This document shows, piece after piece, positions 6,621-53,007 of a DNA stretch of 64,000 nucleotides. Location of the stretch: contig NZ_CP135996.1 in NCBI RefSeq assembly GCF_029211325.2, positions 62,001 through 126,000 on the forward strand. Reading direction: 5' to 3'. The notes under the pieces were generated by a model, which was not told the origin of the DNA, did no database searches, and was given only the letters and a program-made list of their open reading frames with translations. Positions within the stretch are counted from its first letter, which is position 1. Each line of letters begins with the position of its first letter. The DNA comes from Caproicibacterium argilliputei. GTDB taxonomy: Bacteria > Bacillota > Clostridia > Oscillospirales > Acutalibacteraceae. A program made the translations under genes and the position numbers.

Positions 6621-6643
6621 AAGTGCGACATAATGTCGCACTT
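6621..6643. repeat. ICE palindrome copy 1 (exact)
   Basis: Half-site AAGTGCGACAT, centre A, then its exact reverse complement. It lies just after the terminator of lipoprotein copy 1. Confidence 0.95.
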
Positions 6644-6682
6644 GTTAAAGATGTTTTTGCGGGCTTTATCTCTCCCCCCCTC

Positions 6683-6711
6683 TTTTCAAAAACGGAAAAA
6701 TGTGCTATGCT
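6683..6711 (+). promoter_or_regulatory. Promoter of lipoprotein copy 2
   Basis: TTTTCA (6683-6688) and TATGCT (6706-6711), 17-bp spacer, identical to copy 1. Confidence 0.5.
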
Positions 6712-6751
6712 TTAAATGGATGATTAAGGGAATTAAAAGAGGGATAGGATT

Positions 6752-7201
6752 ATGAAAAACAAGAGATTTGCAGCTTTGGTGATGTCAGTAGCAATCATTT
6801 TTGCCGGAATCAGTTTCAGCGGATGCGGGAACAGCACCAGCGCCGCAAAGAATGACGGCAGCGTAAAAATTACGGATACGACGATTGAGGGTACGCTATG
6901 GATGGACTATTGTCAAAAATATTCATATTTGTTTAATGCGAATGGGCAGTTTACTGTAACAGCTGGAGTGGTAAACGGCACTAATGCATCAGCATATACT
7001 GCAAGCGGTACATACACGCTCAAGGATAAAACACTTACATTATTGCTTAATCCAACGAAACAAGTGTTTCATCAAACAAGTGGAGATGACCAAAAGGTTT
7101 TTACTATGGACGACTCCCCTTATTCTCTGTACTCAAATCAAAGTGCGGCCGAAGATTCCATTGCCAAGGGAACCGGAAAGGTTTCTTCAAGTTCAAAATA
7201 G
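6752..7201 (+). CDS. Putative lipoprotein, array copy 2
   Basis: 149 residues with the same signal peptide and FSGC lipobox (C25) as copy 1. It differs in two windows: residues ~50-62 (LWMDYCQKYSYLFNANGQF) and ~105-125 (FHQTSGDDQKVFTMDD). The second window is shared with copy 3 but not with 1 or 4. The last ~25 residues (YSLYSNQSAAEDS, then a Lys/Ser tail) are nearly constant in all copies. The unit is promoter-gene-terminator-palindrome. Likely surface-exposed; role unknown. Confidence 0.8.
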   Translation: MKNKRFAALVMSVAIIFAGISFSGCGNSTSAAKNDGSVKITDTTIEGTLWMDYCQKYSYLFNANGQFTVTAGVVNGTNASAYTASGTYTLKDKTLTLLLNPTKQVFHQTSGDDQKVFTMDDSPYSLYSNQSAAEDSIAKGTGKVSSSSK

Positions 7202-7216
7202 AAATATCTATACAAA

Positions 7217-7248
7217 AGGCGAAGGGAGTTTTCTCCCCTCGCCTTTTT
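7217..7248 (+). terminator. Terminator of lipoprotein copy 2
   Basis: Same GGCGAAGGGAG/CTCCCCTCGCC hairpin plus T-run as copy 1; the palindrome begins immediately after it. Confidence 0.85.
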
Positions 7249-7271
7249 AAGTGCGACATTATGTCGCACTT
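7249..7271. repeat. ICE palindrome copy 2 (exact)
   Basis: Exact 23-bp palindrome, centre T, abutting the terminator of lipoprotein copy 2. Confidence 0.95.
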
Positions 7272-7308
7272 GCTAAAGATGCTTTTGCGGGCTTTATCTC
7301 TCCCCCTC

Positions 7309-7337
7309 TTTTCAAAAACGGAAAAATGTGCTATGCT
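7309..7337 (+). promoter_or_regulatory. Promoter of lipoprotein copy 3
   Basis: TTTTCA (7309-7314) and TATGCT (7332-7337), 17-bp spacer. Confidence 0.5.
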
Positions 7338-7377
7338 TTAAATGGATGATTAAGGGAATTAAAAGAGGGATAGGATT

Positions 7378-7827
7378 ATGAAAAACAAGAGATTTGCCGC
7401 TTTGGTGATGTCGGTAGCAATCATTTTTGCCGGAATCAGTTTCAGCGGATGCGGGAACAGCACCAGCGCCGCAAAGAATGACGGCAGCGTAAAAATTACG
7501 GATACAACAATTGAAGGTACGCTGTGGGCGGATGATAGCCAAAAGTACGCGTATTTGTTTAATGCGAATGGGCAGTTTACTGTAACAGCTGGCGTTGTAA
7601 ATGGCACTAATGCGTCAGCATATACTGCAAGCGGTACATACACGCTCAAGGATAAAACACTTACATTATTGCTTAATCCAACGAAACAAGTTTTTCATCA
7701 AACAAGTGGAGATGACAAAAAGGTTTTTACTATGGACGACTCCCCTTATTCTCTGTACTCAAATCAAAGTGCGGCCGAAGATTCCATTGCCAAGGGAACC
7801 GGAAAGGTTTCTTCAAGTTCAAAATAG
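7378..7827 (+). CDS. Putative lipoprotein, array copy 3
   Basis: 149 residues, closest to copy 2: it carries the same FHQTSGDD.KVFTMDD segment and differs mainly at ~50-60 (LWADDSQKYAYLF). Signal peptide with FSGC lipobox at C25. The near-identity of flanking DNA between copies suggests recent duplication or ongoing gene conversion. Expected to be attached to the outer face of the membrane; function not recognised. Confidence 0.8.
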   Translation: MKNKRFAALVMSVAIIFAGISFSGCGNSTSAAKNDGSVKITDTTIEGTLWADDSQKYAYLFNANGQFTVTAGVVNGTNASAYTASGTYTLKDKTLTLLLNPTKQVFHQTSGDDKKVFTMDDSPYSLYSNQSAAEDSIAKGTGKVSSSSK

Positions 7828-7842
7828 AAATATCTATACAAA

Positions 7843-7874
7843 AGGCGAAGGGAGTTTTCTCCCCTCGCCTTTTT
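7843..7874 (+). terminator. Terminator of lipoprotein copy 3
   Basis: Same hairpin and T-run as the other copies. Confidence 0.85.
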
Positions 7875-7882
7875 AACTTTTC

Positions 7883-7905
7883 AAGTGCGACATAATGTCG
7901 CACTT
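7883..7905. repeat. ICE palindrome copy 3 (exact)
   Basis: Exact 23-bp palindrome, centre A, between lipoprotein copies 3 and 4. Confidence 0.95.
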
Positions 7906-7943
7906 GTTAAAGATGTTTTTGCGGGCTTTATCTCTCCCCCCTC

Positions 7944-7972
7944 TTTTCAAAAACGGAAAAATGTGCTATGCT
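7944..7972 (+). promoter_or_regulatory. Promoter of lipoprotein copy 4
   Basis: TTTTCA (7944-7949) and TATGCT (7967-7972), 17-bp spacer. Confidence 0.5.
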
Positions 7973-8012
7973 TTAAATGGATGATTAAGGGAATTAAAAG
8001 AGGGATAGGATT

Positions 8013-8462
8013 ATGAAAAACAAGAGATTTGCAGCTTTGGTGATGTCGGTAGCAATCATTTTTGCCGGAATCAGTTTCAGCGGATGCGGGAACAGCACCA
8101 GCGCCGCAAAGAATGACGGCAGCGTAAAAATTACGGATACAACAATTGAAGGTACACTGTGGGATGATGATAGTCAAAAGCATGTGTACACGTTTAATAC
8201 AAATAAGCAATTTACTGTAACAGCTAGAGTTGTAAACGGCACTAATGCATCAGCATATACTGCAAGCGGTACATACACGCTCAAGGATAAAACACTTACA
8301 TTATTGCTTAATCCAACAAAACAAGTTTTTATGCAATCTGAGAAGGATGGAAGAACAGTATTTGCTGGTGAAGAGGGCACTTATTCTCTATACACAAGTC
8401 AAAGTGCAGCCGAAGATTCCATTGCCAAGGGAACCGGAAAGGTTTCTTCAAGTTCAAAATAG
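8013..8462 (+). CDS. Putative lipoprotein, array copy 4
   Basis: 149 residues with the common signal peptide and lipobox. The first variable window (LWDDDSQKHVYTFNTNKQF) is unique. The second (FMQSEKDGRTVFAGEEGTYSL) is of the copy-1 type, while the N-terminal half is closer to copies 2 and 3. The gene is therefore a mosaic of the two types. It is the last of the array and converges on the DUF2726 gene across a shared palindrome. Confidence 0.8.
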   Translation: MKNKRFAALVMSVAIIFAGISFSGCGNSTSAAKNDGSVKITDTTIEGTLWDDDSQKHVYTFNTNKQFTVTARVVNGTNASAYTASGTYTLKDKTLTLLLNPTKQVFMQSEKDGRTVFAGEEGTYSLYTSQSAAEDSIAKGTGKVSSSSK

Positions 8463-8477
8463 AAATATCTATACAAA

Positions 8478-8509
8478 AGGCGAAGGGAGTTTTCTCCCCT
8501 CGCCTTTTT
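8478..8509 (+). terminator. Terminator of lipoprotein copy 4
   Basis: Same hairpin plus T-run; the palindrome starts at the next base. Confidence 0.85.
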
Positions 8510-8532
8510 AAGTGCGACATTATGTCGCACTT
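8510..8532. repeat. ICE palindrome copy 4 (exact), overlapping a stop codon
   Basis: Exact palindrome, centre T. Read on the minus strand its centre gives AGT GCG ACA TAA, the last three codons (S-A-T) and stop of the DUF2726 gene. Confidence 0.95.
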
Positions 8533-9215
8533 CCTAATAGCGTATTTTCAATCAATTGCTGTAGCTTATCACTGTCAGTTTTGCATACAGTGTCAGTTGC
8601 AGGGAGTTGGTAGCGCAGCAATGGCAGCCCGATTGCTGCAAAAAGTTTATTCTTAAAGCGGTCATTTGCCAGCTGACGCTGAAAGGCTTTGTCGGCCTGT
8701 TCCTTTGTTGTATCACCTGAGTAATATGCTTGTAAATGTGAGGAACCGTCAATCTCAATTGCCAGCACTGGTCGATAACGGTGAAATGTCACAATGCGGC
8801 CATCCTTGCGCTGATGGGTATGGTTAGGGTCATCCTTGCAGATAAGGAAGTCAACGCTCTTTGACAGTATCTTTGTTTTTGCAAGATCCGCTGTTACGCC
8901 TTTTTCAAGTTTCACAAAAGAGTGCAAGCTAACTTGTGCGAAAAGATAGAGCTTCATGTTCTTAAGCTTTTCACCCTTCAATGCTTCACCAATGTGATAA
9001 TAAAAAAAGCTTTCATTTGGCGTCATTATGGAATCACTGAGCCAGAAATTTTTATCTGGGTTGTCTTCAACTGCCTGACTGCGAAGCTGTCTGTTTTCAG
9101 TTTGCAATTGATTGAGGCTATTTTTCAGATCTTCAATCAGTTTGTTTTGTTTATCAAAGATAGCTTGCACATTGACAGGAGTAATATTTTGCTGCTTTTT
9201 GCGTCCGAACATCAT
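8520..9215 (-). CDS. DUF2726 family, nuclease-like protein
   Basis: 231-residue protein. Residues ~10-45 form a predicted coiled coil (QNKLIEDLKNSLNQLQTEN). The rest resembles DUF2726: SVDFLIC, then PVLAIEIDGSSH, then NDRFKNKLFAAIGLPLLRY, i.e. the D...ExD...K layout of PD-(D/E)xK-like nucleases. It may cut or bind DNA; activity is inferred from motif layout only. The start at 9215 is preferred because AGAGGGAAC sits right before the ATGATG; a frame from 9245 lacks a site. Its final codons and stop are formed by the 23-bp palindrome. It stands alone between two palindromes, in the cargo part of the element, and has lower GC than the chromosome. Confidence 0.7.
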   Translation of the reverse strand: MMFGRKKQQNITPVNVQAIFDKQNKLIEDLKNSLNQLQTENRQLRSQAVEDNPDKNFWLSDSIMTPNESFFYYHIGEALKGEKLKNMKLYLFAQVSLHSFVKLEKGVTADLAKTKILSKSVDFLICKDDPNHTHQRKDGRIVTFHRYRPVLAIEIDGSSHLQAYYSGDTTKEQADKAFQRQLANDRFKNKLFAAIGLPLLRYQLPATDTVCKTDSDKLQQLIENTLLGSAT

Positions 9216-9284
9216 GTTCCCTCTCTTTTCGGCAGATTTTGCCATATCCTAATATTATCACATTTTAAGAAAGGGAGCAATAAC

Positions 9285-9307
9285 AAGTGCGACATTATGT
9301 CGCACTT
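9285..9307. repeat. ICE palindrome copy 5 (exact)
   Basis: Exact palindrome, centre T, between the DUF2726 gene and the 3' end of the integrase gene. Confidence 0.95.
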
Positions 9308-9315
9308 GCTTGCCT

Positions 9316-10281
9316 TTATGCGTGTTGAAGTTGTTCAATCATCTTCTGTAAATCGGAAATCGTTTTTGCTTGCTGGGTTACCAAAATAGAAATCGAAGTG
9401 TTTGCCTGTGTGGTTTCCTGACGCATATCTATCATGTCTGTCTGTTCCCGCAAAAAATCCAAATCCGGAGAACAGTACTGCTTGATAGTAAAGGCAACGT
9501 CTGTATGCCCAAGTATCTGAGACAGTGCCTTAATATTCATACCGTCCTCCAGAGCACGCGTAGCAAATGTGTGCCGATATACATGGGTGGTAATGAAAGG
9601 AATACCGGTTTCCCTGCGAAGGCGCAGATAGAGCTTCTGCAGGGATGATATTGTCACTGGATTGCCATTTGACGAGTGGAAAATAGCGTTGTCAAAACGG
9701 CATTTAGGTTGGGATAATAGAATTTGTTGAGCTTCCCTGTTAAGAGGCACAGGGCGTACACCGGCTTTTGTTTTGCTCTTGCGTATGTAGATAACTTGCT
9801 GCTTTTTGTCATAGTCGCTCCATTTGAGATTGCACAATTCTTCGGCTCGCAGACCTGTACGCAAAAAGAAAATAGTCACATAGCCGAGCAGCGTCTCCTG
9901 CGCCACTGCTTCAACTTTTGCCTGCTCTTCGCGTGTGAGCGCACGCACAATTTTCTGTGCAGCTCTTTTGGGAATGTAAAGCTTGCCTATCTGTGAAACA
10001 CCGAATGCCGGAATCTCACTAGCAGCTTCGTATGCTTTGTGAAAGACAACGCGAATAGAGTTGAGGGTTGATTTTGCGTATTTGCCAGCGAGATCATTCA
10101 AAATTCTCTGTATATACAAAGAGGTAAGCTCATCCAGCGGCATATCCTGCAGCTCTGGATGATAGCGATTAAGAATGCCTATTGCGCATTTGTAGCAAGC
10201 GTATGTTTTTTCAGCGAGGTTTGGCTTAGAATAAGTTTCGTTCCATTTTTTTAACCAGTCCATAACAGTTGTTTTTTCCAT
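9316..10281 (-). CDS. int: Tyrosine recombinase (ICE integrase)
   Basis: Site-specific recombinase of 321 residues that should integrate and excise the element at tRNA-Arg. An N-terminal SAM-like core-binding domain (~8-90) precedes the catalytic domain. Catalytic residues are visible: R145 in RTGLRAEELC, H233 and R236 in HVYRHTF, H259 in LGHTD, and nucleophile Y269 in IKQYC. The start at 10281 follows GGAGG at a 7-bp distance; longer readings lack such a site. A short C-terminal helix (~300-320, AKTISDLQKMIEQLQ) is added. The gene lies 4 kb inside attL, separated from it by the lipoprotein array. No classical Xis was recognised beside it; the small AbrB-like gene upstream could regulate it. 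Confidence 0.92.
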   Translation of the reverse strand: MEKTTVMDWLKKWNETYSKPNLAEKTYACYKCAIGILNRYHPELQDMPLDELTSLYIQRILNDLAGKYAKSTLNSIRVVFHKAYEAASEIPAFGVSQIGKLYIPKRAAQKIVRALTREEQAKVEAVAQETLLGYVTIFFLRTGLRAEELCNLKWSDYDKKQQVIYIRKSKTKAGVRPVPLNREAQQILLSQPKCRFDNAIFHSSNGNPVTISSLQKLYLRLRRETGIPFITTHVYRHTFATRALEDGMNIKALSQILGHTDVAFTIKQYCSPDLDFLREQTDMIDMRQETTQANTSISILVTQQAKTISDLQKMIEQLQHA

Positions 10282-10422
10282 TTCGTAAGCCTCCAGAATA
10301 TATTTGTTCTTCACAAGAGTAAAAATATAGAAATATCCTGTCAATTTTTTTGAAAAACGATATAATAATGAAGGCGTATGAAGGTGGAGTATAATTTCTC
10401 AAAAGGATTCCGTTATGCGCAC

Positions 10423-10458
10423 AAAAAAGAAGGCGGAGGTGGTAGCCCCCGTCTTCTT
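10423..10458 (-). terminator. Terminator downstream of the AbrB-like gene
   Basis: On the minus strand AAGAAGACGGGGG-ctaccac-CTCCGCCTTCTT is followed by TTTTTTG. The palindrome at 10475-10497 lies between it and the gene. Confidence 0.7.
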
Positions 10459-10474
10459 GCTGTTTATAAAAAAT

Positions 10475-10497
10475 AAGTGCGACATAATGTCGCACTT
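10475..10497. repeat. ICE palindrome copy 6 (exact)
   Basis: Exact palindrome, centre A, between the AbrB-like gene's stop and its terminator. Confidence 0.95.
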
Positions 10498-10526
10498 ACG
10501 GAGGGCGGATAGGATAATGCATAGGC

Positions 10527-10721
10527 TTACTCCTTTTGCGTGGCTGGACGCATCAGGATGCCCTGATTGGTGCAGATCAGCTCTGCACAGTCAGTCAGAT
10601 GATAAATTTCCCGGAGCTGAACCGGGATAGACATCCGGCCGAAGCCGTCGATTTGACGGACGACACCGGTTACTTCTGCTGTGATCTGGATTTTAGGCAT
10701 ACCGAATTCATTTTCGTTCAT
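10527..10721 (-). CDS. AbrB/SpoVT-type DNA-binding regulator
   Basis: 64-residue protein with a swapped-hairpin AbrB domain: GVVRQIDGFGRMSIPVQLR (~20-38), followed by a strand-rich segment ending MRP. Such proteins dimerise and bind DNA as transition-state regulators or antitoxins. Ribosome site AGAGGGAATTAAC precedes the ATG. It is transcribed towards the integrase but separated from it by a terminator and a palindrome, so regulation of the integrase is only a possibility. No toxin partner is adjacent. Confidence 0.8.
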   Translation of the reverse strand: MNENEFGMPKIQITAEVTGVVRQIDGFGRMSIPVQLREIYHLTDCAELICTNQGILMRPATQKE

Positions 10722-10765
10722 GTTAATTCCCTCTTTTATTATTTGTTTTTGGTTGAATTAAGGCA

Positions 10766-10793
10766 TAAAAAAGAGGAGGGCAACCCTCCTCTA
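10766..10793 (-). terminator. Terminator of the 199-residue unknown gene
   Basis: Minus strand AGAGGAGGG-ttg-CCCTCCTCT followed by TTTTTT. Confidence 0.85.
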
Positions 10794-10800
10794 AAAGTGT

Positions 10801-10823
10801 AAGTACGACATTCTGTCGCACTT
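10801..10823. repeat. ICE palindrome copy 7 (two mismatches)
   Basis: Same element with A for G at half-site position 5 and C for A just right of the centre, so symmetry is partly lost. Confidence 0.85.
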
Positions 10824-10852
10824 AGCAATTGACTTCGTGATAGACAACTCAC

Positions 10853-11452
10853 TTACAATAGAATGTCTTGCAATAACGACGAACACGGTTTTATAATATC
10901 GTCGTAGATAAGCGTATTGCTACTGTTATCAATCTTGCAGGGATTGTTCAACAATATCTCATTATCATTATTAACTTCTTTTTCCAGCTCATAATTCTTC
11001 CAAATATGTTGATAGTAACCGCCGCCTTCTGCCTTTTCGTGTGACTTAAAATAAAACTCGTTTTTATCAAACATATAGCGCAACGACAAGGCACAAATTG
11101 GCTTGCTTGCTGTCATGCTTGTTTGAACTGGAAAAACCAAGGCCACATATTTATCGTTAATGCCTACTTTTATGCATAGCAGCATGGGCAATTGTTCGTT
11201 TAGTTTCATAATATATGGATAACCCATTTTACTAACTTTACGCCCATACTTCCTTGAAATGGTTTGATAGCTTTTATTAGGATAACGATGATTTATCTTA
11301 TAGTCGTCAAACTCTTCCATTCCCAACGTAAAATTAAAAGTCAATACATCAGAGTTTCTGTACGGGAAATAGCAGCCCAAGTCGAAAACTATACAGCATT
11401 CATCTTTAGCCAACTGAATTTCGTTCTTGAAAATTTCGCTATAATGCGTCAT
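10853..11452 (-). CDS. Unknown protein, ICE cargo
   Basis: 199-residue soluble protein with no signal peptide or membrane segment. No family recognised. It is rich in aromatic and charged residues (for example CCIVFDLGCYFPYRN near the N-terminus and GGGYYQHIWKNYELEKEV near residue 145). The GC content is clearly lower than in the transfer region, suggesting separate acquisition. Ribosome site AAAGGGAT precedes the ATG, and it has its own terminator. It is bounded by palindromes on both sides as a single-gene module. Confidence 0.6.
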   Translation of the reverse strand: MTHYSEIFKNEIQLAKDECCIVFDLGCYFPYRNSDVLTFNFTLGMEEFDDYKINHRYPNKSYQTISRKYGRKVSKMGYPYIMKLNEQLPMLLCIKVGINDKYVALVFPVQTSMTASKPICALSLRYMFDKNEFYFKSHEKAEGGGYYQHIWKNYELEKEVNNDNEILLNNPCKIDNSSNTLIYDDIIKPCSSLLQDILL

Positions 11453-11491
11453 TTTTTTATCCCTTTCTTGGATGTTATAAAATTCGGGTAC

Positions 11492-11516
11492 AAAAAAGAG
11501 GAGGGCAACCCTCCTC
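11492..11516 (-). terminator. Terminator of the GNAT/ASCH pair
   Basis: Minus strand GAGGAGGG-ttg-CCCTCCTC followed by TTTTTTG, nearly the same hairpin as at 10766-10793. Confidence 0.8.
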
Positions 11517-11526
11517 GTAAAAATAT

Positions 11527-11549
11527 AAGTGCGACATTATGTCGCACTT
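11527..11549. repeat. ICE palindrome copy 8 (exact)
   Basis: Exact palindrome, centre T, between the ASCH gene's stop and its terminator. Confidence 0.95.
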
Positions 11550-11571
11550 ACAAAAGATTTTTAATGGAATA

Positions 11572-11940
11572 TTAAACGTAAGCAAATGATTGCGGTGCTT
11601 GGTGAAGCCCATAATCGGATAAACTCCGCGGCCGTTTAAATTTTTTTATTTTTCCTAGCTTATATGCCACTGCTATATCATGTCCTTGATAATAATGATC
11701 GAAAAAGGATTTATTTACACCGGAAAATGATGAAGTCTCACTCCACACTTTCTCTGGTGAATCCTCAATAATTTCTAGAATGTCGACCTCTCCTATTACT
11801 AGCATAGTGGGTGCAGTTTCATACATAACGATTTTGCGAACTGGTTGTTTACATTTCCTTTTTCGAAATTCATACTTTTTGCTGCCGTTAAGAATATTCA
11901 CGACATGTTCAGGGTTAATTGATAATAACATTTTCTGCAT
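11572..11940 (-). CDS. ASCH/PUA-like domain protein
   Basis: 122 residues with the ASCH-type opening MQKMLLSINPEHVVNILNGS, then KKYEFRKRKCK and GEVDILEI. ASCH domains have a PUA-like fold and are thought to bind RNA or modified nucleotides. The start at 11940 is chosen because GGGTG lies 7 bp before it and family members begin a few residues before LLSI; in-frame GTG/ATG codons at 11949/11946 are alternatives. It overlaps the 3' end of the GNAT gene by 26 bp, so the two are translated from one message. Function is inferred from family only. Confidence 0.7.
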   Translation of the reverse strand: MQKMLLSINPEHVVNILNGSKKYEFRKRKCKQPVRKIVMYETAPTMLVIGEVDILEIIEDSPEKVWSETSSFSGVNKSFFDHYYQGHDIAVAYKLGKIKKFKRPRSLSDYGLHQAPQSFAYV

Positions 11941-12976
11941 GTACATCACCCATTCTTAAAATTTGATTAAATTGTTGAGGAGAATAGGATATTTGATAAG
12001 GATGGCAATTGAACAGACCTTGTTCATGCAAGTTCTTTTGAATTACATTGTGCCCATTTCCGAAGAATCCATTATAGACCATTTGTATGGCGAGAAGCGT
12101 CTGTTTTTTGTAGTACAGCGCGGTAAGTTCCTCATGTGAGAAGACAGTCTTATTTCCGGCCAAATCTAAAAAATCAAATAGAGAAACCGTTTTACTGGAC
12201 GATTTGATAATATCAATTTTCGTAATTGTACAAAAGGAAGTTACAACGGATTTGTATTGCTTATGTTCACCAGAAAACTTTCTGTAGATAAAAATTGGTT
12301 CATCAATCGTATAAACCGTAGGTTCAAAGGGAGCAGCGATAAAAATTTTGGTTACTCCATTCCCAGCAGTTTCTTCTTCGATTTGTCCGTTATTCCCTTT
12401 TAGTTCCGAGTAAGGAAATAGTTTATCATGATAAATATCATTGATAGGAATAATCCCTGCTTTTTGAAATGGTTTTATAAAGGGGAAACAAGCGTATGGG
12501 TTAGAGCAGTCAAGACTGTATCTACACTTTATATAGATATTTTCTCCAATAGGACTTTTTCCCGCCATAGAAAATCCAAACTTTTGAAATAAGTCAATTA
12601 ACAGTCTGTGTTTTTCAAAAACTGTTACATAAATTTCCGGAAGCTGTGATTCCTGCCATTTCCATAGGCAAACGCCTAACGCCCCTTCTCCTAATCGCTG
12701 ACCTCTGAATCGTTCAGCAATACGAATCGTAGAAATTTTCAATCGCGGTTTGGAAGGTATTTTCCCTTGAGTGGTAAGAATTTCTTGCGTCTCTGGTTTC
12801 AAACTTATAAAAGCACCAATACCATTTTCATCGTAAAACACCAATGCCGGCCGATGTTCATTTGCTTTTCGATTAAACCAGCTACTAAAATCAGAATAAT
12901 CTGACTTTAGTGACGAAAAAAATGGATCATTTAAATTAATTTGAGAAAAATCACTCCAAATAAATTTTCCCGCCAT
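11915..12976 (-). CDS. GNAT N-acetyltransferase with C-terminal extension
   Basis: 353 residues. The N-terminal ~150 residues form a GNAT fold with the acetyl-CoA loop RFRGQRLGEGALG and the later FEKHRLLIDLFQKFGF. The C-terminal ~200 residues (from about KCRYSLDCSNPYACFPF) are not recognised; they contain a beta-rich part (EPTVYTIDEPIFIYRKFSG..SVVTSFCTITKI) that could be another PUA/EVE-like module. The start has GGGAGAG 8 bp before it and a TATAAT-type -10 further upstream. Co-encoded with the ASCH protein. Substrate unknown: tRNA, protein or small molecule are all possible. Low GC relative to the transfer genes. Confidence 0.7.
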   Translation of the reverse strand: MAGKFIWSDFSQINLNDPFFSSLKSDYSDFSSWFNRKANEHRPALVFYDENGIGAFISLKPETQEILTTQGKIPSKPRLKISTIRIAERFRGQRLGEGALGVCLWKWQESQLPEIYVTVFEKHRLLIDLFQKFGFSMAGKSPIGENIYIKCRYSLDCSNPYACFPFIKPFQKAGIIPINDIYHDKLFPYSELKGNNGQIEEETAGNGVTKIFIAAPFEPTVYTIDEPIFIYRKFSGEHKQYKSVVTSFCTITKIDIIKSSSKTVSLFDFLDLAGNKTVFSHEELTALYYKKQTLLAIQMVYNGFFGNGHNVIQKNLHEQGLFNCHPYQISYSPQQFNQILRMGDVHAENVIIN

Positions 12977-12999
12977 AATACCACTCTCCCAATATTTTA

Positions 13000-13005
13000 A
13001 TTATA
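13000..13005 (-). promoter_or_regulatory. -10 element of the GNAT/ASCH operon
   Basis: TATAAT on the minus strand, 24 bp upstream of the GNAT start. No clear -35 hexamer is seen at the usual distance. Confidence 0.45.
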
Positions 13006-13041
13006 CCATATATGGGAGGTAAATTAAACCTTTTTCTTGCT

Positions 13042-13064
13042 AAGTGCGACATAATGTCGCACTT
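13042..13064. repeat. ICE palindrome copy 9 (exact)
   Basis: Exact palindrome, centre A, between the GNAT/ASCH operon and the 3' end of topB. Confidence 0.95.
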
Positions 13065-13082
13065 AGCAATTGGATAGGGAGA

Positions 13083-15227: not shown

Positions 15228-15332
15228 AATTTAGTTTTCCTCCAAACAAATAGGTTCCTTTATTTTGTAATGATCAGTTTAACACAGTATAGATGGTCCT
15301 GCTCTATGTTGGGGCAGATCTGAATACCGAGC

Positions 15333-15539
15333 CTAAGCAAATTGGATAACCCATTTTTCAATCACTTTTTTAATATACGGTTGCGTTGCGTCTGCAAATT
15401 CACAGAAATCTTCCCGCATTTCTTCCAACGTGTCATAGGCAGCGAAAAACAGTCTATCCGGCTCGATTGTTTGACGGAATGCTTTTGCAATATCTTCTTG
15501 ATGGTCTAAAACCCATTTTTGACTTTCGGATAATGTCAT
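15333..15539 (-). CDS. Small unknown protein upstream of topB
   Basis: 68 residues, acidic and helical (EDIAKAFRQTIEPDRLFFAAYDTLEEMREDFCEF). No family recognised. A GGGAG site lies 11 bp upstream. It ends 105 bp before topB on the same strand, so the two may be co-transcribed. Confidence 0.5.
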   Translation of the reverse strand: MTLSESQKWVLDHQEDIAKAFRQTIEPDRLFFAAYDTLEEMREDFCEFADATQPYIKKVIEKWVIQFA

Positions 15540-15570
15540 CTTTTATGTACTCCCGTTCAAGTGGATTTCT

Positions 15571-15593
15571 AAGTGCGACATAATGTCGCACTT
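15571..15593. repeat. ICE palindrome copy 10 (exact)
   Basis: Exact palindrome, centre A, between two divergent units (topB side and hicAB). It marks the right edge of the palindrome-rich cargo region. Confidence 0.95.
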
Positions 15594-15637
15594 ACTAGAT
15601 GTGTATTCAAACCTTTTCATTTGCAACTAAATATTAG

Positions 15638-15666
15638 TTGCATTTTCGAGTGCGTTGTAGTATACT
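15638..15666 (+). promoter_or_regulatory. Promoter of hicAB
   Basis: TTGCAT (15638-15643) and TATACT (15661-15666), 17-bp spacer, ending 18 bp before hicA. AACTAATATTAGTT-like symmetry at 15624-15639 (gcaactaaatattagttgc) overlaps the -35 and is a likely HicB operator. Confidence 0.65.
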
Positions 15667-15683
15667 ATTACTGGTGATAAAAA

Positions 15684-18495: not shown

Positions 18496-19749
18496 TTAAA
18501 ATCCGCCGCGGGATTCCGTTTCTGTTTCTGACTCCGATGCGCGCAGCATGGTCTCATAATCTCGCTGGTTCCGATAACTGTTGTCACTGCGCAGTGCTTT
18601 TTTCAATGCGCCGAGAGCACGGTCAAGATCGTGGTTGACAGCTGCACGGCGTACCAAAGGACGCGTATCCTGCCGGGGGCCTCCGGTTATTCGCTGCCGC
18701 GCCAGGCGGTCATACTCCCGCATCTCTGTGAGGATGGAGTTACCCATCCGGGTATACAGATCCCGCAGCTTCGTTGTTCCATACTGCGTGTGCAAATCGC
18801 GCTTGCTGGTTCCGTAAACAGATTGCTGGAAGCGTTCTTCTTTTTTTAGTGCCTGCGTCAACTGCGCAAAATCCGCCGGGTGATACCGGTCAATGTACGC
18901 TTTTGTCAGCCGGTCAATCTGTGGTCGCAGGGACTGCATGGCACCCATATTGTATTTCCAAGTGCGCCGGTCGTGAGGCAGTGCATGGTAAATTGCAAGG
19001 AACTGCTGGCGTAACTGGTGGTCCTCTTGAAACAGATTTTTTGATTTGGCGGCAATGATGTTGTTTCGGATTAAGCTGTTAATATGCTGCAGATCTTCCG
19101 TGCGATCAACCAATCGGTTTGCAACCTGGGACTTTACTTTGTCCAAAGAAGACTGTTTCCACTTGCCACGAAACTGTTCTTCGCCGTTCACCAAAACCGT
19201 TTTTCGGGAGGGCTGTGGTTCTACAACTGCAATGTGGATATGAATGTTGTCCGTGTTGTAATGCATAGCGGCTGTCCACACAGCGCTATCCTGCATTCCC
19301 TCATTTTTGAGCAGTGCGGTCATAGCTGAGCGCGTTGCCGTGCGCAGGTGTGCCTCATCCAGCAGACCGGTGCGAGCGTCGTACAGACCATGTTCCTGCA
19401 GCCAGTCGTTGCGAAAAGAAACGACGGTCTGCCACATGGGACTGCCGTTTCGCTGTGCCTTTGTGAATTGACTTTTGTAAAACCTCTTTTGCTGATCAGA
19501 AAGCGCATCGGCTGTAGAGGTGAACAAGGCACTGGTGCGTTCGGAATCCGGGTTGAAGTCAGATTGTTTTGCGGGGTTGTCCATGTAGTCCGTCATGTAG
19601 GCAGAAAACTGTTGATATTTGTCATTCCGAATTGCATTGTCTCGGTCCATATAATCCACATAAGTCCGAAAGCGCTTGTCTCCGGACATGACGAATTTTG
19701 TGTGCATAACAACGCCGGGGACAGGCCCCGGACTATGATTATGTGTCAT
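18496..19749 (-). CDS. Relaxase, MobP-type
   Basis: 417 residues. DNA-nicking transesterase that starts conjugation at oriT. The metal-binding motif HYNTDNIHIHIAVVEP (HxDxxHxH-like) is clear near residue 164. The N-terminal motif region includes YVDYMDRDNA with candidate catalytic tyrosines, typical of MobP2-like relaxases of Gram-positive elements. The C-terminal half is helical and charged. AGGAGGG precedes the ATG. It follows the TIR-protein gene across a terminator-like hairpin. Confidence 0.87.
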   Translation of the reverse strand: MTHNHSPGPVPGVVMHTKFVMSGDKRFRTYVDYMDRDNAIRNDKYQQFSAYMTDYMDNPAKQSDFNPDSERTSALFTSTADALSDQQKRFYKSQFTKAQRNGSPMWQTVVSFRNDWLQEHGLYDARTGLLDEAHLRTATRSAMTALLKNEGMQDSAVWTAAMHYNTDNIHIHIAVVEPQPSRKTVLVNGEEQFRGKWKQSSLDKVKSQVANRLVDRTEDLQHINSLIRNNIIAAKSKNLFQEDHQLRQQFLAIYHALPHDRRTWKYNMGAMQSLRPQIDRLTKAYIDRYHPADFAQLTQALKKEERFQQSVYGTSKRDLHTQYGTTKLRDLYTRMGNSILTEMREYDRLARQRITGGPRQDTRPLVRRAAVNHDLDRALGALKKALRSDNSYRNQRDYETMLRASESETETESRGGF

Positions 19750-30950: not shown

Positions 30951-31036
30951 GCTCTGGACTTAATGAGAGGCACAGCCTCTGTTAAGTGCGACATAATGTC
31001 GCACTTCGAACTGTGCCCCCGGACTAAATCCAGAGC
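30951..31036. repeat. Nested inverted repeats around a palindrome
   Basis: Outer arms GCTCTGGACTTAA (30951-30963) and CTAAATCCAGAGC (31024-31036) are near-exact reverse complements. Inside lie GAGGC-aca-GCCTC (30969-30981) and the 23-bp palindrome (30984-31006). The structure lies between the pilin and virD4 genes and could attenuate or process the transfer mRNA. Confidence 0.55.
30984..31006. repeat. ICE palindrome copy 11 (exact)
   Basis: Exact palindrome, centre A, the only copy within the 24-kb transfer operon. Confidence 0.95.
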
Positions 31037-41169: not shown

Positions 41170-41192
41170 GAGTGCGACATAATGTCGCACTC
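41170..41192. repeat. ICE palindrome copy 12 (outer pair changed, still symmetric)
   Basis: The 21-bp core is identical but the outermost A/T pair is G/C, so the palindrome is kept by a compensatory change. A T-run (TTTTTTT) follows on the plus strand. Confidence 0.93.
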
Positions 41193-41256: not shown

Positions 41257-41279
41257 AAGTGCGACATTATGTCGCACTT
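41257..41279. repeat. ICE palindrome copy 13 (exact), overlapping a stop codon
   Basis: Exact palindrome, centre T. On the minus strand it supplies AGT GCG ACA TAA, the final S-A-T and stop of the sortase gene, as in copy 4. Confidence 0.95.
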
Positions 41280-47294: not shown

Positions 47295-47570
47295 CTAGCT
47301 GGTATCGATCCATTTGGCAGGGGAAAGCAAGAGTGCGTCCAGTTGGTCTTTTCTCCGGTACGCGGCAGACAAGTCGTCTGTTTGCCAAAGCCAAACACGG
47401 TGATCCTCCAGTGTGATGGCTTTTAGGATATATTCCATCTTTCCAGCGGTTCTACGGGCTTCGATTTCCGTATCGCAGGCAGCAACACACTCCTGTGTTT
47501 TTCGGTTTTGTAATTGCAGTAAGGTATGTCCTGCACCGTCCATGTGAATATTTTTCACAAGATAGCTCAT
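47295..47570 (-). CDS. Unknown small protein after RepA-like gene
   Basis: 91 residues, mixed alpha/beta (YLVKNIHMDGAGHTLLQLQN, VWLWQTDDLSAAYRRKDQLDA). No family recognised. Its ATG overlaps the RepA-like stop (ATGA), so it is translated from the rep message. Confidence 0.6.
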   Translation of the reverse strand: MSYLVKNIHMDGAGHTLLQLQNRKTQECVAACDTEIEARRTAGKMEYILKAITLEDHRVWLWQTDDLSAAYRRKDQLDALLLSPAKWIDTS

Positions 47571-48676
47571 GCCGGAACACTCCTTTCGTAATCGACAAAT
47601 ATATCATACAGGCTGTCACGCTCATAAGCTTCCAAATCAAAGGACGGACAGTCAGCAGGCGTAACATCTGGCTTCTGGTAATTCGCATAACTGCCCTCTG
47701 CAACACGTTCCCAATGCTGGAGCAGCCAGTCAAAGGACGCGCGGAACAGGGTACCGTCCCGGCCGGGCTTGCGGCCGGTCAAAAAGTCGCTGGCTTCCAC
47801 ATCCCGGCAAACCGACTGAAAAGTTTCTGCGGACAGGTGTTTGTCCAAGATTAGCTGCTTGCGGTTGACACCCCACTGCCAAACAGGCACTGGTGCATTC
47901 AGGGAAGGACAGCCTGCTACAAAGGCATTGCGGATGGCTTCAAAAAATTCAGTTTCTGCAGTTTGTGTGGGGGGTGTTTCGCACAGTCTCACTCCCTCAG
48001 TCTCGGTATATTCAGTCTCGGTAATAGTATAAGAAGAGATGGCACCCATACTTTGGGACTCTAGAGCCTCCTGTTTTGGGAGTCTAGACTCCCTCACTTT
48101 GGGATTCAAGACTCCCAAATTTTGCGCTTCTGGATTCTCTGCATTCGGAGGTTCCGGAACGCCGGTTTCAGTCGTTTTATTGGCACATTCTGCCGGGGAA
48201 GCGGCTTGTGCATTGGTTTGGAAGTCTGTTTTCTGTGCTTCTTGGTTCTTCTTTTTTGGGAGAGCAGACGGTTTTTTCTTTTTCTCTTTTGGTCTGCTGT
48301 TACCAGAGTCCGATACAGCCGGTGATAACCCACTGGCAAAATTCATCACATAGTAAACGACCGGCTTGCCCTGTCCACGCCGCTGACGCTGAATTAAGCC
48401 AAATTCAACTAGTTCATTCAGCACCTTTGTGACAGTGTTTTTGCTGCTATTGAGTGCCAGCATGATTGTGTCCACGCGGTATTCTATGTATACACGGTTT
48501 TGATCGTCAATCCAGCCGCTTTTGCGGGAAAGGCTCATGCGGTCGAGCATCAGGCTATAGAGAACTTTGCCCTCCGTGGTAAGTTGCTGGAAGACACTAT
48601 CTTCAAAAAGCGCTTTTGGCAGGCGAAGGAATCGAAACTGTTCTCCATCGTTTCCATAATAAAACTCAAAGTTCAT
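47567..48676 (-). CDS. RepA_N-type replication initiator-like protein
   Basis: 369 residues. The N-terminal ~120 residues match the RepA_N/winged-helix start (YYGNDGEQFRFLRLPKALFED, LLYSLMLDRMSLS-like, SSKNTVTKVLNELVEFGLIQ). A Lys/Pro/Gln-rich linker and a C-terminal domain (~260-369, VWQWGVNRKQLILDKHLS) follow. It probably initiates replication of the excised circle. The start at 48676 is preferred, 11 bp inside the upstream paralogue's end. The longer frame from 48721 is a read-through. Confidence 0.78.
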   Translation of the reverse strand: MNFEFYYGNDGEQFRFLRLPKALFEDSVFQQLTTEGKVLYSLMLDRMSLSRKSGWIDDQNRVYIEYRVDTIMLALNSSKNTVTKVLNELVEFGLIQRQRRGQGKPVVYYVMNFASGLSPAVSDSGNSRPKEKKKKPSALPKKKNQEAQKTDFQTNAQAASPAECANKTTETGVPEPPNAENPEAQNLGVLNPKVRESRLPKQEALESQSMGAISSYTITETEYTETEGVRLCETPPTQTAETEFFEAIRNAFVAGCPSLNAPVPVWQWGVNRKQLILDKHLSAETFQSVCRDVEASDFLTGRKPGRDGTLFRASFDWLLQHWERVAEGSYANYQKPDVTPADCPSFDLEAYERDSLYDIFVDYERSVPA

Positions 48677-49040
48677 TCTCGTTTTCCCCCATAAGTTCGG
48701 ATTTTGTAAGGCCACTGGCAAAGTTCATCACATAATAGCCGTTCTGTCTGCGCTGGATTAAGCCGAAATCGACTAATTCGTTTAAAATCTTTGTGACGGT
48801 ATTTTTGCTGCTGTTGAGTGCTTTCCGGATTTCGCTTGAACGGTATTCAACGTACACGCGGTTTTGGTCGTCAACCCAACCATTTTCACGGGATAAGCGC
48901 ATGCGGTCGAGCATCAGGCTATAGAGGATCTTGCTTTCACTGGAAAGTTGTTTGAATGTGTCGTATTCAAACAGTGCTTTGGGGATATAGAGGAAGTTGT
49001 GCTGTTCTCCATCGTTGCCATAATAAAAATTAAAACTCAT
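48666..49040 (-). CDS. Short RepA_N-domain paralogue
   Basis: 124 residues, about 75% like the N-terminal domain of the next gene (YYGNDGEQHNFLYIPKALFE, SSKNTVTKILNELVDFGLIQ) but lacking its linker and C-terminal domain. It probably arose by tandem duplication. It may act as a DNA-binding regulator or competitor of the full-length initiator. Overlaps both neighbours by 11 bp. Confidence 0.72.
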   Translation of the reverse strand: MSFNFYYGNDGEQHNFLYIPKALFEYDTFKQLSSESKILYSLMLDRMRLSRENGWVDDQNRVYVEYRSSEIRKALNSSKNTVTKILNELVDFGLIQRRQNGYYVMNFASGLTKSELMGENENEL

Positions 49041-50247: not shown

Positions 50248-50248
50248 T

Positions 50249-50509: not shown

Positions 50510-50662
50510 AAAGCACCTCCGTTTTTTATATCATACGTTATTTTATGCAGAAAGTCAAGAAAATATGTGTGCTTTTAATGTGCTTTTGCAATAATTACTC
50601 TGATCATAACTAAATAGCTAATTCAATAGATATGGTTTGTACTTCTTTTTTCATCATTACAA

Positions 50663-51808
50663 TTATACTCCTTTTGGCCCATCTGGATAGGCATTCTCAA
50701 ACTCCGCCAGACGCTGAACTAGATCCTCTTTGTTGGCATCGCTCCAATAGCCTGTCTTAATGCCATTGACGCGCTCATGCGTCAGACGCTGGTAGCTTAC
50801 CGAAGCCGCAGGTTCAGTGTCAGCAATATCTTCTTCCGTAAAGACCGTTTCCTGATTCGGCAGGGGCAGATTTCCGCTGCTGTCACGGATGTGCTTTTCA
50901 ACCGGCTTGCATTCATGCACCGGAGGTTGCGGTTTGGCAGCAGGACGCTTGTCCTGCTCCGTTCCGGCATAGGGCTGAATTTCACTATTACCGATAGGCT
51001 GCTGCAGTTCCGCAGCAGGTGCTTCTTCTGGAGTTTCCAATTCATCCGGTGTTTCGTCAGATTCTGACAAATCAATTTTTCCAGCAAAAAAATCGTTCAA
51101 AATATCGCTGTACCAGTTATGCACCTTTTCCAGCGCCATTAAATCTTCTGCCTGCTTATAAGAAATTTTCGTGTTGGCATAGTTATTCAAGTAATCAGCT
51201 AACTGCTGCTGATTATTTGCGAATTGTACATCAGCAAACAGAACAGCAGCAGTGACCGGAACACGTCCTTCATCAACAAGTGCCAGCAAATCATCACACA
51301 ACGTTGATATTTTAATGTATCGCTGAATGGTTTTTACGGTGTCGCCGGTTTGCTCCGCGATAGCTGCGGTGCTTTTGCGTTCACCTTTCGCTTCATAAGC
51401 AGCCTTTTGCATCGCATAACCGCGCGCCAGCTCTGACGGAAGCAGCTCATGTCGCTGGCACAGATTAGTTTCCGTCAGAATTAAGTCTGCTTCTGCGTCT
51501 GTGCATTCCCGAACAATGCATTTCACCTTGCACCCGGCCAATTCGCACGCACGTTTACGGTTACGACCTGCCAAGATAATGTACTTATTGTCTATCTCGC
51601 GAACAATGCAGGGCTGCTGCTGTCCGTTTTCCCGGATACTGTCAGCCAGCTGCTGCAACTGCTCCTGTGAGTATGCCCGAAACGGTTGGTCGGTGATTTC
51701 TTGCAGTTCCGCAGGTTCAATTTCGGTAATCTGGTCGCCGTTTACAGCGACGCCGTAGAGTGTCCCGGTGAAAGCTTCTTCCAGTGTCGGCAAGGACTGC
51801 TTTTTCAT
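50663..51808 (-). CDS. parB: ParB-family partition protein
   Basis: 381 residues. ParB/Spo0J N-domain with the CTP-box-like segment ILAGRNRKRACELAG and TETNLCQRHELLPSELARGYAM, then an HTH (STAAIAEQTGDTVKTIQRYIKI). The C-terminal part is acidic and Pro-rich, ending in YWSDANKEDLVQRLAEFENAYPDG. The ATG overlaps the parA stop by 4 bp. It should bind a centromere-like site; the element's 23-bp palindrome is an untested candidate. A decayed second copy of the 3' half lies at ~54.4-54.75 kb. Confidence 0.88.
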   Translation of the reverse strand: MKKQSLPTLEEAFTGTLYGVAVNGDQITEIEPAELQEITDQPFRAYSQEQLQQLADSIRENGQQQPCIVREIDNKYIILAGRNRKRACELAGCKVKCIVRECTDAEADLILTETNLCQRHELLPSELARGYAMQKAAYEAKGERKSTAAIAEQTGDTVKTIQRYIKISTLCDDLLALVDEGRVPVTAAVLFADVQFANNQQQLADYLNNYANTKISYKQAEDLMALEKVHNWYSDILNDFFAGKIDLSESDETPDELETPEEAPAAELQQPIGNSEIQPYAGTEQDKRPAAKPQPPVHECKPVEKHIRDSSGNLPLPNQETVFTEEDIADTEPAASVSYQRLTHERVNGIKTGYWSDANKEDLVQRLAEFENAYPDGPKGV

Positions 51809-52599
51809 TCCGCATCACCTGCAATTCTCTTTGCAGCGGCAAGGTAAGCCTGCCCAACGCGGCTACTTTTACGGTGTACCAGACTGCCGCACAAAGTGTT
51901 GTCATCATCCGTGCTGTTGCGCGCTTCTTGTAGCATTGGAACCGGAGCTGCAAAAACGAGGCTCCCATAGCTTTCTTTTAAAGCTGTGAAAACCTCGTTG
52001 CTCATTTTTGTTTGGCGGCTGTACATGGTAACAAGCATCCCGGCGAGGAACGGTTTAACATCTTTCGTCTGCTTGATTGCCATGTATCGTTGCAGCATTT
52101 GCGGAATGCAGTCATAAGCGAATTTTTCAGCTTGAACCGGCAACAACAATTTGTCACTGCATTTCAGTGCATTGGAAACCAACAGATTATCAACGGCAGT
52201 CGGGCAGTCAAATAAGATGTAGTCATACTGGGCGAAAAAATCACGATGGAAAACCCGGTCAAGCACGGTGTTGCTCTGACCATCATTGCCCAAAACAGCG
52301 TAAATACCGCCGAGCATCTTATTTGCGGGGATATAGTCCAGTTGCTCCCGGTCGCTGTGTCGGATAAACTGCATATCATCATTGGAGCAGATCCCGGATA
52401 CCTCCTGGTAGATCAGCTCCGACACAGTGGGTTTGCCGTCCGGCTGATAGCCGAGCCAACGTGACAGGTGTCCCTGCTGATCGAGGTCAACTAGGAGGAC
52501 ATTCTTGCCGAGTAGACGCAAACCTGCACCAACATTCAACGCTGTTGTTGTCTTGCCGACACCGCCTTTTTCGATTGCTACTGCGATAATTTTACTCAT
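51805..52599 (-). CDS. parA: ParA-family partition ATPase
   Basis: 264-residue Walker-type ATPase: deviant Walker A AIEKGGVGKTTTALN, then VLLVDLDQQGHLSRWL, and YDYILFDCPTAVDN. Works with ParB to segregate the circular or replicating form of the ICE. GGAGAAAAATC precedes the ATG. Confidence 0.93.
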   Translation of the reverse strand: MSKIIAVAIEKGGVGKTTTALNVGAGLRLLGKNVLLVDLDQQGHLSRWLGYQPDGKPTVSELIYQEVSGICSNDDMQFIRHSDREQLDYIPANKMLGGIYAVLGNDGQSNTVLDRVFHRDFFAQYDYILFDCPTAVDNLLVSNALKCSDKLLLPVQAEKFAYDCIPQMLQRYMAIKQTKDVKPFLAGMLVTMYSRQTKMSNEVFTALKESYGSLVFAAPVPMLQEARNSTDDDNTLCGSLVHRKSSRVGQAYLAAAKRIAGDAE

Positions 52600-52621
52600 G
52601 ATTTTTCTCCTTTACAATGGG

Positions 52622-52639
52622 GGCTGCGTTTAGCGCAGC
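52622..52639. repeat. Inverted repeat upstream of parA
   Basis: GGCTGCG-ttta-CGCAGCC-type hairpin between the DUF3970 gene and parA, without a T-run. It could be an operator for ParA/ParB or a partial attenuator. Confidence 0.4.
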
Positions 52640-52684
52640 CGCAGACGATTTTGTTTGTCTTATTTACATTGCACGGCCAGTCGA

Positions 52685-52888
52685 TTAAGATCGGCCGTTT
52701 TCGGTCTTTTCCACGTCTGCATACATACGGACGTACTTACTGCCACGATTTCGGGTCGGGGTGGAACAATTACTGACTTGGTAATTGGCGTCATTTTCTG
52801 TTTTACTGATAGTTACGGAGCCGGTGCGCAGCTTGTCACGCATGGCCCTAATTTCCGATGGCAAGCCCGTTAGGCGAATCTTGATCAT
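52685..52888 (-). CDS. DUF3970-like small protein
   Basis: 67 residues, IKIRLTGLPSEIRAMRDKL, VTISKTENDANYQVSN, KYVRMYADVE. Matches the short DUF3970 proteins frequent on Gram-positive mobile elements, function unknown. Its ATG overlaps the stop of a 26-codon ORF (TAATG). Confidence 0.7.
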   Translation of the reverse strand: MIKIRLTGLPSEIRAMRDKLRTGSVTISKTENDANYQVSNCSTPTRNRGSKYVRMYADVEKTENGRS

Positions 52889-52968
52889 TACAGATTTCCC
52901 TCCGCATACAATTTTTTATCCATCGTTTCTTGCGTCAACCGAGCGCCAAAATCTTCATCTAGTGTCAT
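52888..52968 (-). CDS. 26-residue small ORF
   Basis: ATG at 52968 preceded by AAGGAGATGAACC; product MTLDEDFGARLTQETMDKK plus seven residues. It is translationally coupled (TAATG) to the DUF3970 gene. The good ribosome site and coupling suggest that it is expressed. It may be a leader peptide. Confidence 0.5.
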   Translation of the reverse strand: MTLDEDFGARLTQETMDKKLYAEGNL

Positions 52969-52984
52969 TGGTTCATCTCCTTCA

Positions 52985-53007
52985 TGAGTGCAACATTATG
53001 TCGCAGA
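52985..53007. repeat. ICE palindrome copy 14 (decayed)
   Basis: GAGTGCAACAT-T-ATGTCGCAGAT: 4 positions differ from the exact form. It is the rightmost copy, about 175 bp inside the right attachment site. Confidence 0.7.

Follow-up and report, generated by a model that had tools for sequence, protein, structure and literature searches.

Dispersed palindromes of a clostridial integrative and conjugative element as probable parS-like sites of its own ParB

Introduction

ParB proteins are CTP-dependent clamps that load at parS sites and slide along the DNA, and the family member KorB thereby silences promoters up to 1.5 kb away (PMC11790492). KorB and its operator OB in RK2 combine a ParB-family CTPase on a conjugative element with operators located near or far upstream of promoters (PMC11790492), while the parABS system of IncC plasmids, also residing on a conjugative element, has 14 inverted-repeat motifs scattered over the backbone, with ParB binding demonstrated for the three sites tested (PMC10954446). 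Here we describe a window of 64,000 nucleotides from Caproicibacterium argilliputei (NZ_CP135996.1, positions 62,001 to 126,000), which contains an integrative and conjugative element (ICE), termed ICE1, with 14 dispersed copies of a 23-bp palindrome, AAGTGCGACATWATGTCGCACTT. From sequence comparisons, these palindromes are likely to be parS-like loading sites of the ParB protein encoded by ICE1 itself (50663-51808), used both for a KorB-like damping of transcription and for partition.

ICE1 differs from each of these systems. The IncC site is a 22-bp inverted repeat with a 14-bp symmetrical core on a Gram-negative plasmid (PMC10954446), as opposed to the 17-bp odd core of ICE1, and diversification of sites coupled to ParB is absent from the available part of that account, which does describe parS mimics on SGI1, an integrated element that, like one relative of ICE1 discussed below (G516), has sites and no ParB of its own. 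OB is 16 bp long, and silencing by KorB is established (PMC11790492), whereas silencing in ICE1 is a proposal of the present work. BisD of ICEclc is likewise a ParB-domain protein on an ICE and controls ICE promoters, but acts as an activator together with BisC in Pseudomonas, and no dispersed palindrome appears in the available part of its description (PMC7423338). The chromosomal ParB-parS and Noc-NBS (Noc-binding site) systems share with ICE1 the ParB_N domain and the helix-turn-helix (HTH), and the equivalent of residue 201 goes with the same base (PMC7383237). A parS site inside a parB gene is represented by parS-359 of B. subtilis (PMC4442127). Scattered parS sites (IncC), a ParB-type global regulator (KorB), a ParB-domain ICE regulator (BisD) and a parS within parB (B. 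subtilis) are already known, and the palindrome, described in an initial annotation of this DNA as not a known insertion sequence, CRISPR or attC, does not fall wholly outside known kinds, since it appears to be parS-like.

The canonical chromosomal parS is TGTTTCACGTGAAACA, with 16 bp and an even centre, and its TG...CA half-site matches T1 G2 .. C6 A7 of the ICE1 core. The core, TGCGACATWATGTCGCA, is distinguished from it by its 17 bp and odd centre, and bases 2-5 vary between elements. Sites of the Xer/dif or pdif type consist of two 11-bp arms about a 6-bp centre, whereas the copies of the ICE1 palindrome have a 1-bp centre. A survey of the ParB fold from 2025 includes many members from mobile elements and, in its available portion, mentions no such site (PMC12704722). 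The literature searched (full text, with few subscription journals) yielded no report of the ICE1 palindromes, nor, for ParB proteins of mobile elements, of a parS occupying one fixed codon position and coevolving with the HTH.

Results

A search of the window with AAGTGCGACATNATGTCGCACTT returned 13 matches at ≤3 mismatches, 11 of them exact and two (10801 and 41170) with 2 mismatches, compared with an expectation of 0.00 from 100 dinucleotide-preserving shuffles. With the addition of a copy containing 4 mismatches, the 14 copies counted in the initial annotation are all accounted for, the last of them starting at 52986 rather than at 52985. Ten of the 13 good copies are fully intergenic and the remaining three overlap the ends of open reading frames (ORFs) by 2, 13 and 21 bases, in an element whose intergenic share is 9.4% by our own gene list. 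A stop codon is present within about 60 bp of most copies, and for 11 of the 13 a start codon is called 31-130 bp downstream (true starts may differ).

The first four copies are exact and have A, T, A and T, respectively, at their centres (6621..6643, 7249..7271, 7883..7905 and 8510..8532). The first begins 61 bp after the stop codon of the first gene of a tandem array, and the fourth lies between convergent genes and overlaps the last 13 bases of the gene at 8520-9245. The array itself (6110-8462) comprises four paralogs of 149 residues, lipoprotein-like by eye, which share a leader and a terminator-like hairpin and are each followed by a palindrome; its first member has no Pfam match. These four sites each trail one copy of the array gene and were probably multiplied along with it.

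The copy at 9285..9307 (exact, centre T) separates the stop codon of the integrase gene from the start of a DUF2726 gene, and is followed by those at 10475..10497 (exact, centre A), 10801..10823 (2 mismatches), 11527..11549 (exact, centre T), 13042..13064 (exact, centre A, within an extended symmetry of 33 bp at 13037-13069) and 15571..15593 (exact, centre A, with divergent genes on either side). Not all of the units bounded by palindromes between 6.6 and 15.6 kb, previously read as cargo modules, are cargo, since the integrase (9316-10344) is one of their genes and a topoisomerase gene (13083-15227) another. Further along the element, the copy at 30984..31006 (exact, centre A) lies 65 bp upstream of the coupling-protein ORF; that at 41170..41192 has its outer pair altered on both sides (G..C) and overlaps by 21 bases the 5' end of an ORF called at 40921-41190, the true start of which may be further in; that at 41257..41279 (exact, centre T) overlaps the 3' end of the ORF at 41278-41607 by 2 bases; and the decayed copy with 4 mismatches (52986..53008) is located upstream of the par genes.

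In the whole 2.9 Mb genome, 14 places match at ≤3 mismatches, and at ≤2 mismatches every place is within ICE1. Thirteen of the 14 places are in ICE1, the other one (648340, 3 mismatches) being part of a second ICE (ICE2). The 21-bp inner part occurs once in each of three stretches from a collection of 84,980 species genomes and gave no match in IMG/VR, in searches from which the window's own genome or a near-identical one may be excluded. A lone copy of this inner part, at position 4070 of a stretch (L017) from a Colwellia metagenome-assembled genome (MAG), belongs to an unrelated gammaproteobacterium in which no close relative of the ParB is found, and is probably due to chance. The exact 23-mer, being nearly absent elsewhere, was dropped as a marker of the family, and other palindromes at corresponding places were examined instead.

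The expectation that the 23-mer itself would track with related ICEs fails in that form, each relative having its own variant. ICE2 encodes a ParB (694912-696021) with 71% identity to that of the window (phmmer) and contains palindromes of the AGGTGCGACAAWTTGTCGSACCT form, eight by a strict scan and nine when the weakest, with 6 mismatches and inside the ICE2 parB gene, is included; the site cores of ICE1 and ICE2 differ chiefly at base 8, and the two kinds of site may be orthogonal. De novo searches revealed dispersed palindromes of the same layout in five further genomes (G665, G624, G199, G597 and G516), and the sets differ by element (GTGCGACAAWTTGTCGSAC, GTGCGACAAAWTGTCGCAC, GTACGACATAATGTCGYAC, ACTCGGACAWWWTGTCCGAGT). 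In five order-1 random sequences per region the best clusters had one member, and once two, while real regions without the motif (G296, G474, G594) show clusters of 2-3 other palindromes, so that clusters of this size carry little meaning. In G199, a candidate GGGGCCGGATTTAATCCGGCCCC pair was dropped when a larger set of CTCGGACA type appeared. Three or more matches to the degenerate pattern GTNSGACANNNTGTCSNAC occur in six of 398 family genomes, all six being among the nine with a parB match at E≤1e-30; on its own this overlap shows a link between the sites and the ICE family rather than with ParB.

Compared with the rest of the element, the par genes are well conserved. ICE1 and ICE2/G665 share 92-94% identity in ParA and 66-68% in ParB (blastp), and no further protein of the ICE1 gene list reaches comparable identity in both. 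The ICE1 relaxase is unmatched in ICE2 and G665, most transfer proteins are unmatched or 22-30% identical (one NlpC/P60 protein reaches 49%), and the ICE2 integrase has 26% identity to that of ICE1 and is located at the opposite end. In the genome of Ruminococcus sp. Marseille-P6503 (G668), added from those matched by the inner-part search, a parB gene whose product is 41% identical to the window's has palindromes of ICE1 type beginning 9 bp ahead of its start and 1.6 kb past it. A plasmid collection held no ParB match above 60% identity. The C. argilliputei genome also contains a further ParB-bearing locus (L169, G000:C1:575300-595200) with its own intragenic palindrome, CTGTCCAAGTTGGACAG, so that three of the ParB-bearing loci of this genome have three different palindromes.

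The ICE1 parB gene (50663..51808, reverse strand, 381 residues) encodes a ParB_N domain (Pfam, 6e-16) and an HTH with V158, K159 and Q162 in the recognition helix, as well as T186. The protein matches Spo0J (1vz0) at E 2e-15 and, in a weak sequence match, KorB at E 1.7e-5, and its AGRNRKRA and TNLCQRHE segments align with the CTP motifs of a Spo0J-like protein. The adjoining parA gene (51805..52599, reverse strand, 264 residues; AAA_31, 2e-34) has a product 94% identical to the ParA of ICE2. The composition of a ParABS system, with a ParB_N/CTP-fold and HTH protein encoded together with a ParA, is therefore present in the window, and the palindromes are linked to parAB on ICE1 and on its parAB-bearing relatives, with G516 as the exception.

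The same odd-centred arrangement is found inside the parB genes of the wider family. Within 59 distant parB genes, 23 perfect palindromes have a 1-bp centre (17 bp in length), as against 1, 3, 6, 5 and 2 for centres of 0, 2, 3, 4 and 5 bp, and by protein alignment 19 of the 23 share a single codon position of the linker that joins the ParB_N domain to the HTH. This position is present in 41 of the 59 genes, at least six of the eight pairs are complementary in 40 of them and all eight in 19, giving 297 pairs in total compared with 167 in shuffles (standard deviation (sd) 8, maximum 192). A larger set of 121 genes was assembled from 100 stretches, picked roughly by score from the parB match listing, and 14 further regions, and leaves out long ParB-domain proteins and part of the tail of the listing. 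Here the position is present in 95 genes, with at least six pairs in 92 and a perfect palindrome in 44, which have 36 different sequences; the 684 pairs compare with 385 in 1000 shuffles (sd 11, maximum 418), and the mean at the linker column is 7.2 pairs versus 3.7 at the next-best alignment column. None of seven long ParB-domain proteins (446-568 residues by open frame; L023, L028, L030, L031, L033, L036 and L040) has a perfect palindrome inside its gene. Further copies at ≤3 mismatches occur in the fetched stretch for five of the 23 perfect-palindrome genes (14 copies versus 2.1 expected), the other 18 having none.

The bases of these sites vary with residues of the ParB HTH, as analysed in 92 genes for protein columns occupied in ≥80% of them, counting complementary pairs only, and with residues numbered by the window ParB and bases from 1 (outer) to 8 (centre). 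Residue 159, in the recognition helix, is related to base 5, which is C in genes with N (21/21), T (10/10) or S (4/4) at this residue, A in those with K (5/5) or E (7/8), G in those with D (19/19) and T in those with A (3/3); genes with R are mixed (C in 9, A in 4 and T in 1). R or K at residue 159 goes with G at base 4 (22/22). Residue 186 is similarly related to base 7, with R accompanied by C in 33 of 34 genes and N, T or S by A in 55 of 55. As a control for kinship, each gene was paired with the nearest relative still unpaired, as judged on the protein without its HTH and linker, pairs above 97% identity being dropped, and the links persist in Fisher tests on these pairs: 159/base 5 (12, 0, 6, 22; p=3e-6), 159/base 4 (p=4e-4) and 186/base 7 (33, 1, 0, 6; p=2e-6). 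For base 5, residue 159 ranks second among 278 columns, behind only a codon that overlaps the site itself. Through alignment rows judged Spo0J- or Noc-like by eye, residues 186 and 158 correspond to positions 201 and 173 of Caulobacter ParB, which are published specificity positions, and R at 201 contacts a C in the Noc-NBS complex (PMC7383237) that is taken to be the equivalent of base 7.

For the window ParB, with K159 and T186, this code predicts GACA at bases 4-7, and the site, reading TGC-GACA-T, matches. The code was also applied outside its training set, to 20 parB genes without a linker palindrome, namely 17 of the 26 that lack the position and three that have it with ≤2 pairs; eight chromosomal-looking (Spo0J-/Noc-like) genes and G519, on a contig without a site, were dropped. 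Within the span searched (the whole stretch for ICE1, ICE2, G665, G624 and G199, and 8 kb on each side for the others), a perfect palindrome with the predicted bases 4-7 was found at 11 of the 20 loci, whereas permuted codes average 6.3 and reach 11 in 0.05% of 2000 permutations. Among the 13 loci outside the ICE lineage, five match, compared with 2.1 for permuted codes (1.25%). In G668, the palindrome at C7:947478 was considered as the site of the ParB at 941442 and dropped, as the code predicts another palindrome, which is found at 943450.

Discussion

The 23-mers are considered parS-like because a 17-bp odd palindrome sits at one codon position of parB genes in the wider family and its bases track the ParB HTH, and their binder is very probably the ICE's own ParB. 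Binding by an element protein was one of three roles raised in the initial annotation, the others being a boundary or insulator and a recombination point, and with ParB as that protein it is strongly supported by the module linkage, the intragenic site and the residue-base coevolution. The core T1 G2 C3 G4 A5 C6 A7 T8 - W - mirror would then follow the parS layout, enlarged by a single base pair at the centre, and in it, judging from the coevolution and the published ParB/Noc structures, K159 would read G4 and A5 and T186 would go with A7. By analogy with the ParB family, ParB-CTP clamps would load at the sites, slide and cover the ICE, damping the transcription units beside the sites in the manner of KorB, while ParA would drive partition of the excised circle, which the RepA_N initiator (47567..48721, reverse strand) would replicate. 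Damping of this kind would explain why most units at the left end have a site. The location of 11 of the 13 sites 31-130 bp before a start codon fits KorB-like control, and the presence of RepA_N and ParA fits partition of the circle, but the excess of promoter-like matches in 5300-16700 over chance is only modest (33 versus 23.0 expected, sd 4.1) and the site at 8510 has convergent genes around it. We favour both uses, with silencing as the likelier reason for the dispersal.

Several observations weigh against this assignment. An ICE in G516 (C1:1616347-1671741, L090-L093), in which frames transposase-like by eye occur, has 13 palindromes of CTCGGACA type and no ParB_N domain was found in it; at a distance of 1.3 Mb (2986820-2987797) there is a truncated remnant of parAB with a single palindrome, and the ICE may either have shed parAB or depend on the ParB of a different element, in the way that SGI1 exploits IncC plasmids. 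In G667, a MAG, palindromes are found on two contigs with no close ParB. Distant relatives (about 21-30% identical to the ICE2 proteins) of the coupling protein, the transfer ATPase and the ArdC-like proteins are present in all six larger elements, although the ATPase match is not reported for G624 from the ICE2 side; since these proteins also occur in G516, which is without ParA and ParB, they fit better than ParB by presence alone. ParB proteins of ICE1 type lack the linker stretch that bears the site in their relatives, and their sites were for this reason assigned by element and code and not by position. The code itself failed at 9 of the 20 out-of-set loci, including G181 (3 of 4 bases) and several without a good palindrome, and with certain residues it allows two or three bases at position 4 or 5. 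Correlations of base 7 with numerous further protein columns point to shared descent, which is why the closest-relative pairing was done. In those pairs the link between residue 162 and base 3 is not significant (p=0.25), and this link, along with the change from Q to Y at that residue in G199, was set aside as suggestive only. Finally, an operator role makes little sense for the site at 8510, between convergent genes.

That last site is more readily accommodated if ParB binds the palindromes and their dispersal serves partition or compaction of the ICE alone, with no control of genes, a possibility of real though lesser weight. RepA_N, ParA and ParB are all present, as this would require, and the 14 putative parS motifs over the backbone of the IncC plasmid R55 are discussed as partition sites (PMC10954446). 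However, 18 of the 23 perfect-palindrome genes have no further copy in the fetched stretch, suggesting that one site may suffice, and most ICE1 sites are shortly upstream of called start codons. A different binder from the element is improbable. The candidates are a small protein of 67 residues encoded upstream of parA (52685..52888, reverse strand), with 31-39% matches in ICE2, G665, G624, G519 and G199; an AbrB-like protein (10527-10721, so labelled by eye and with no Pfam match), with 33-39% matches in ICE2, G665, G519 and G668; and the integrase, relatives of which (59-72%) are encoded near palindromes in G519, G665 and G667. Yet the small protein has no match in G668 or G516 and the AbrB-like protein none in G624, G199 or the G516 ICE, and the integrase of ICE2 is the divergent one at the other end. 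The AbrB-like protein and the integrase, both named as candidates in the initial annotation, are accordingly disfavoured, neither being present in every site-bearing element, and coevolution of the site bases with HTH residues in the wider family speaks for ParB over any of the three.

Recombination joints for the exchange of cargo were another suggested role, and in part the comparison of ICE2 with G665, whose aligned blocks are 83-96% identical, agrees with it. At the left ends, homology stops at the right edge of one palindrome (648342/952976) and resumes at the left edge of another (649224/957307), enclosing 0.9 kb with one gene (J-domain-like by eye) in ICE2 and 4.3 kb with two more palindromes in G665; a third junction is situated within the G665 palindrome at 959292, of which ICE2 retains half, and the tandem array of ICE1 repeats a unit that includes its site. 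This cargo swap nevertheless concerns a single pair of elements, several further breakpoints between the two are away from sites, and five right-hand sites are in matching places in the two elements. The 1-bp centre is, moreover, unlike the 6-8 bp crossover region of Xer/tyrosine recombinases, and it is very unlikely that recombination is what the sites are chiefly for. Least probable of all is an action in RNA, as a terminator, a processing hairpin or a 3'-end structure, despite the proximity of most copies to a stop codon and the terminator-like character, on one strand, of three of the 10 copies in the scanned stretch (9284-9308, 10473-10499 and 11524-11552). Separate terminator-like hairpins stand beside some copies (10772-10792 and 11498-11516), relatives repeatedly have an unpaired base in mid-stem (GTGCGACAAWTTGTCGGAC in ICE2 and G665), and neither the coevolution with ParB nor the intragenic copies would be explained.

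Loading of ParB at parS-like sites, as preferred here, also allows a broader proposal, which we advance tentatively: a large group of parB genes of mobile elements may carry their own centromere in the coding sequence, site and HTH codiversifying by a simple residue-base code into many distinct partition specificities, and the ICE lineage may have relocated the site from the gene and distributed it over the element, as a ParB control network and as joints for cargo exchange. If so, the gene of a mobile-element ParB would reveal the target of the protein, two HTH residues would predict it in part, and both the incompatibility of co-resident elements and the reach of ParB control would become testable from sequence. 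ICE1 would represent a counterpart, in an ICE of Gram-positive type, of the KorB/RK2 and IncC parS networks, and there would be a reason for cargo genes to arrive with a site of their own. The three loci of this one genome with a ParB and a different palindrome each provide a natural test of orthogonality.

Other features of the element

ICE1 is bounded by a 60-bp direct repeat on the forward strand, of which the left copy (attL, 5345..5404) includes the 3' end of a tRNA-Arg gene (5317-5393) and the right copy (attR) lies at 53131..53190. Its Pfam content comprises a tyrosine integrase (9316..10344, reverse strand), a MobL relaxase (18496..19749, reverse strand), the coupling protein of a type IV secretion system, SSB, ArdC-like proteins, RepA_N, ParB and ParA. 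Just past attR, at 53287-54737, there are a fragment resembling the start of an array gene (88% over 64 bp) and another resembling ParB (54420-54737), which together seem to be what is left of a similar ICE at this tRNA-Arg site. Two parts of a 1734-residue ORF at 41994-47198 are repetitive, one of them an 18-nucleotide tandem repeat (42421-42798) and the other at 46109-46540. Within the conjugation region, a TIR-domain protein, possibly a defence gene product, is encoded at 19827-20936 and adjoins two small genes of no assigned function.

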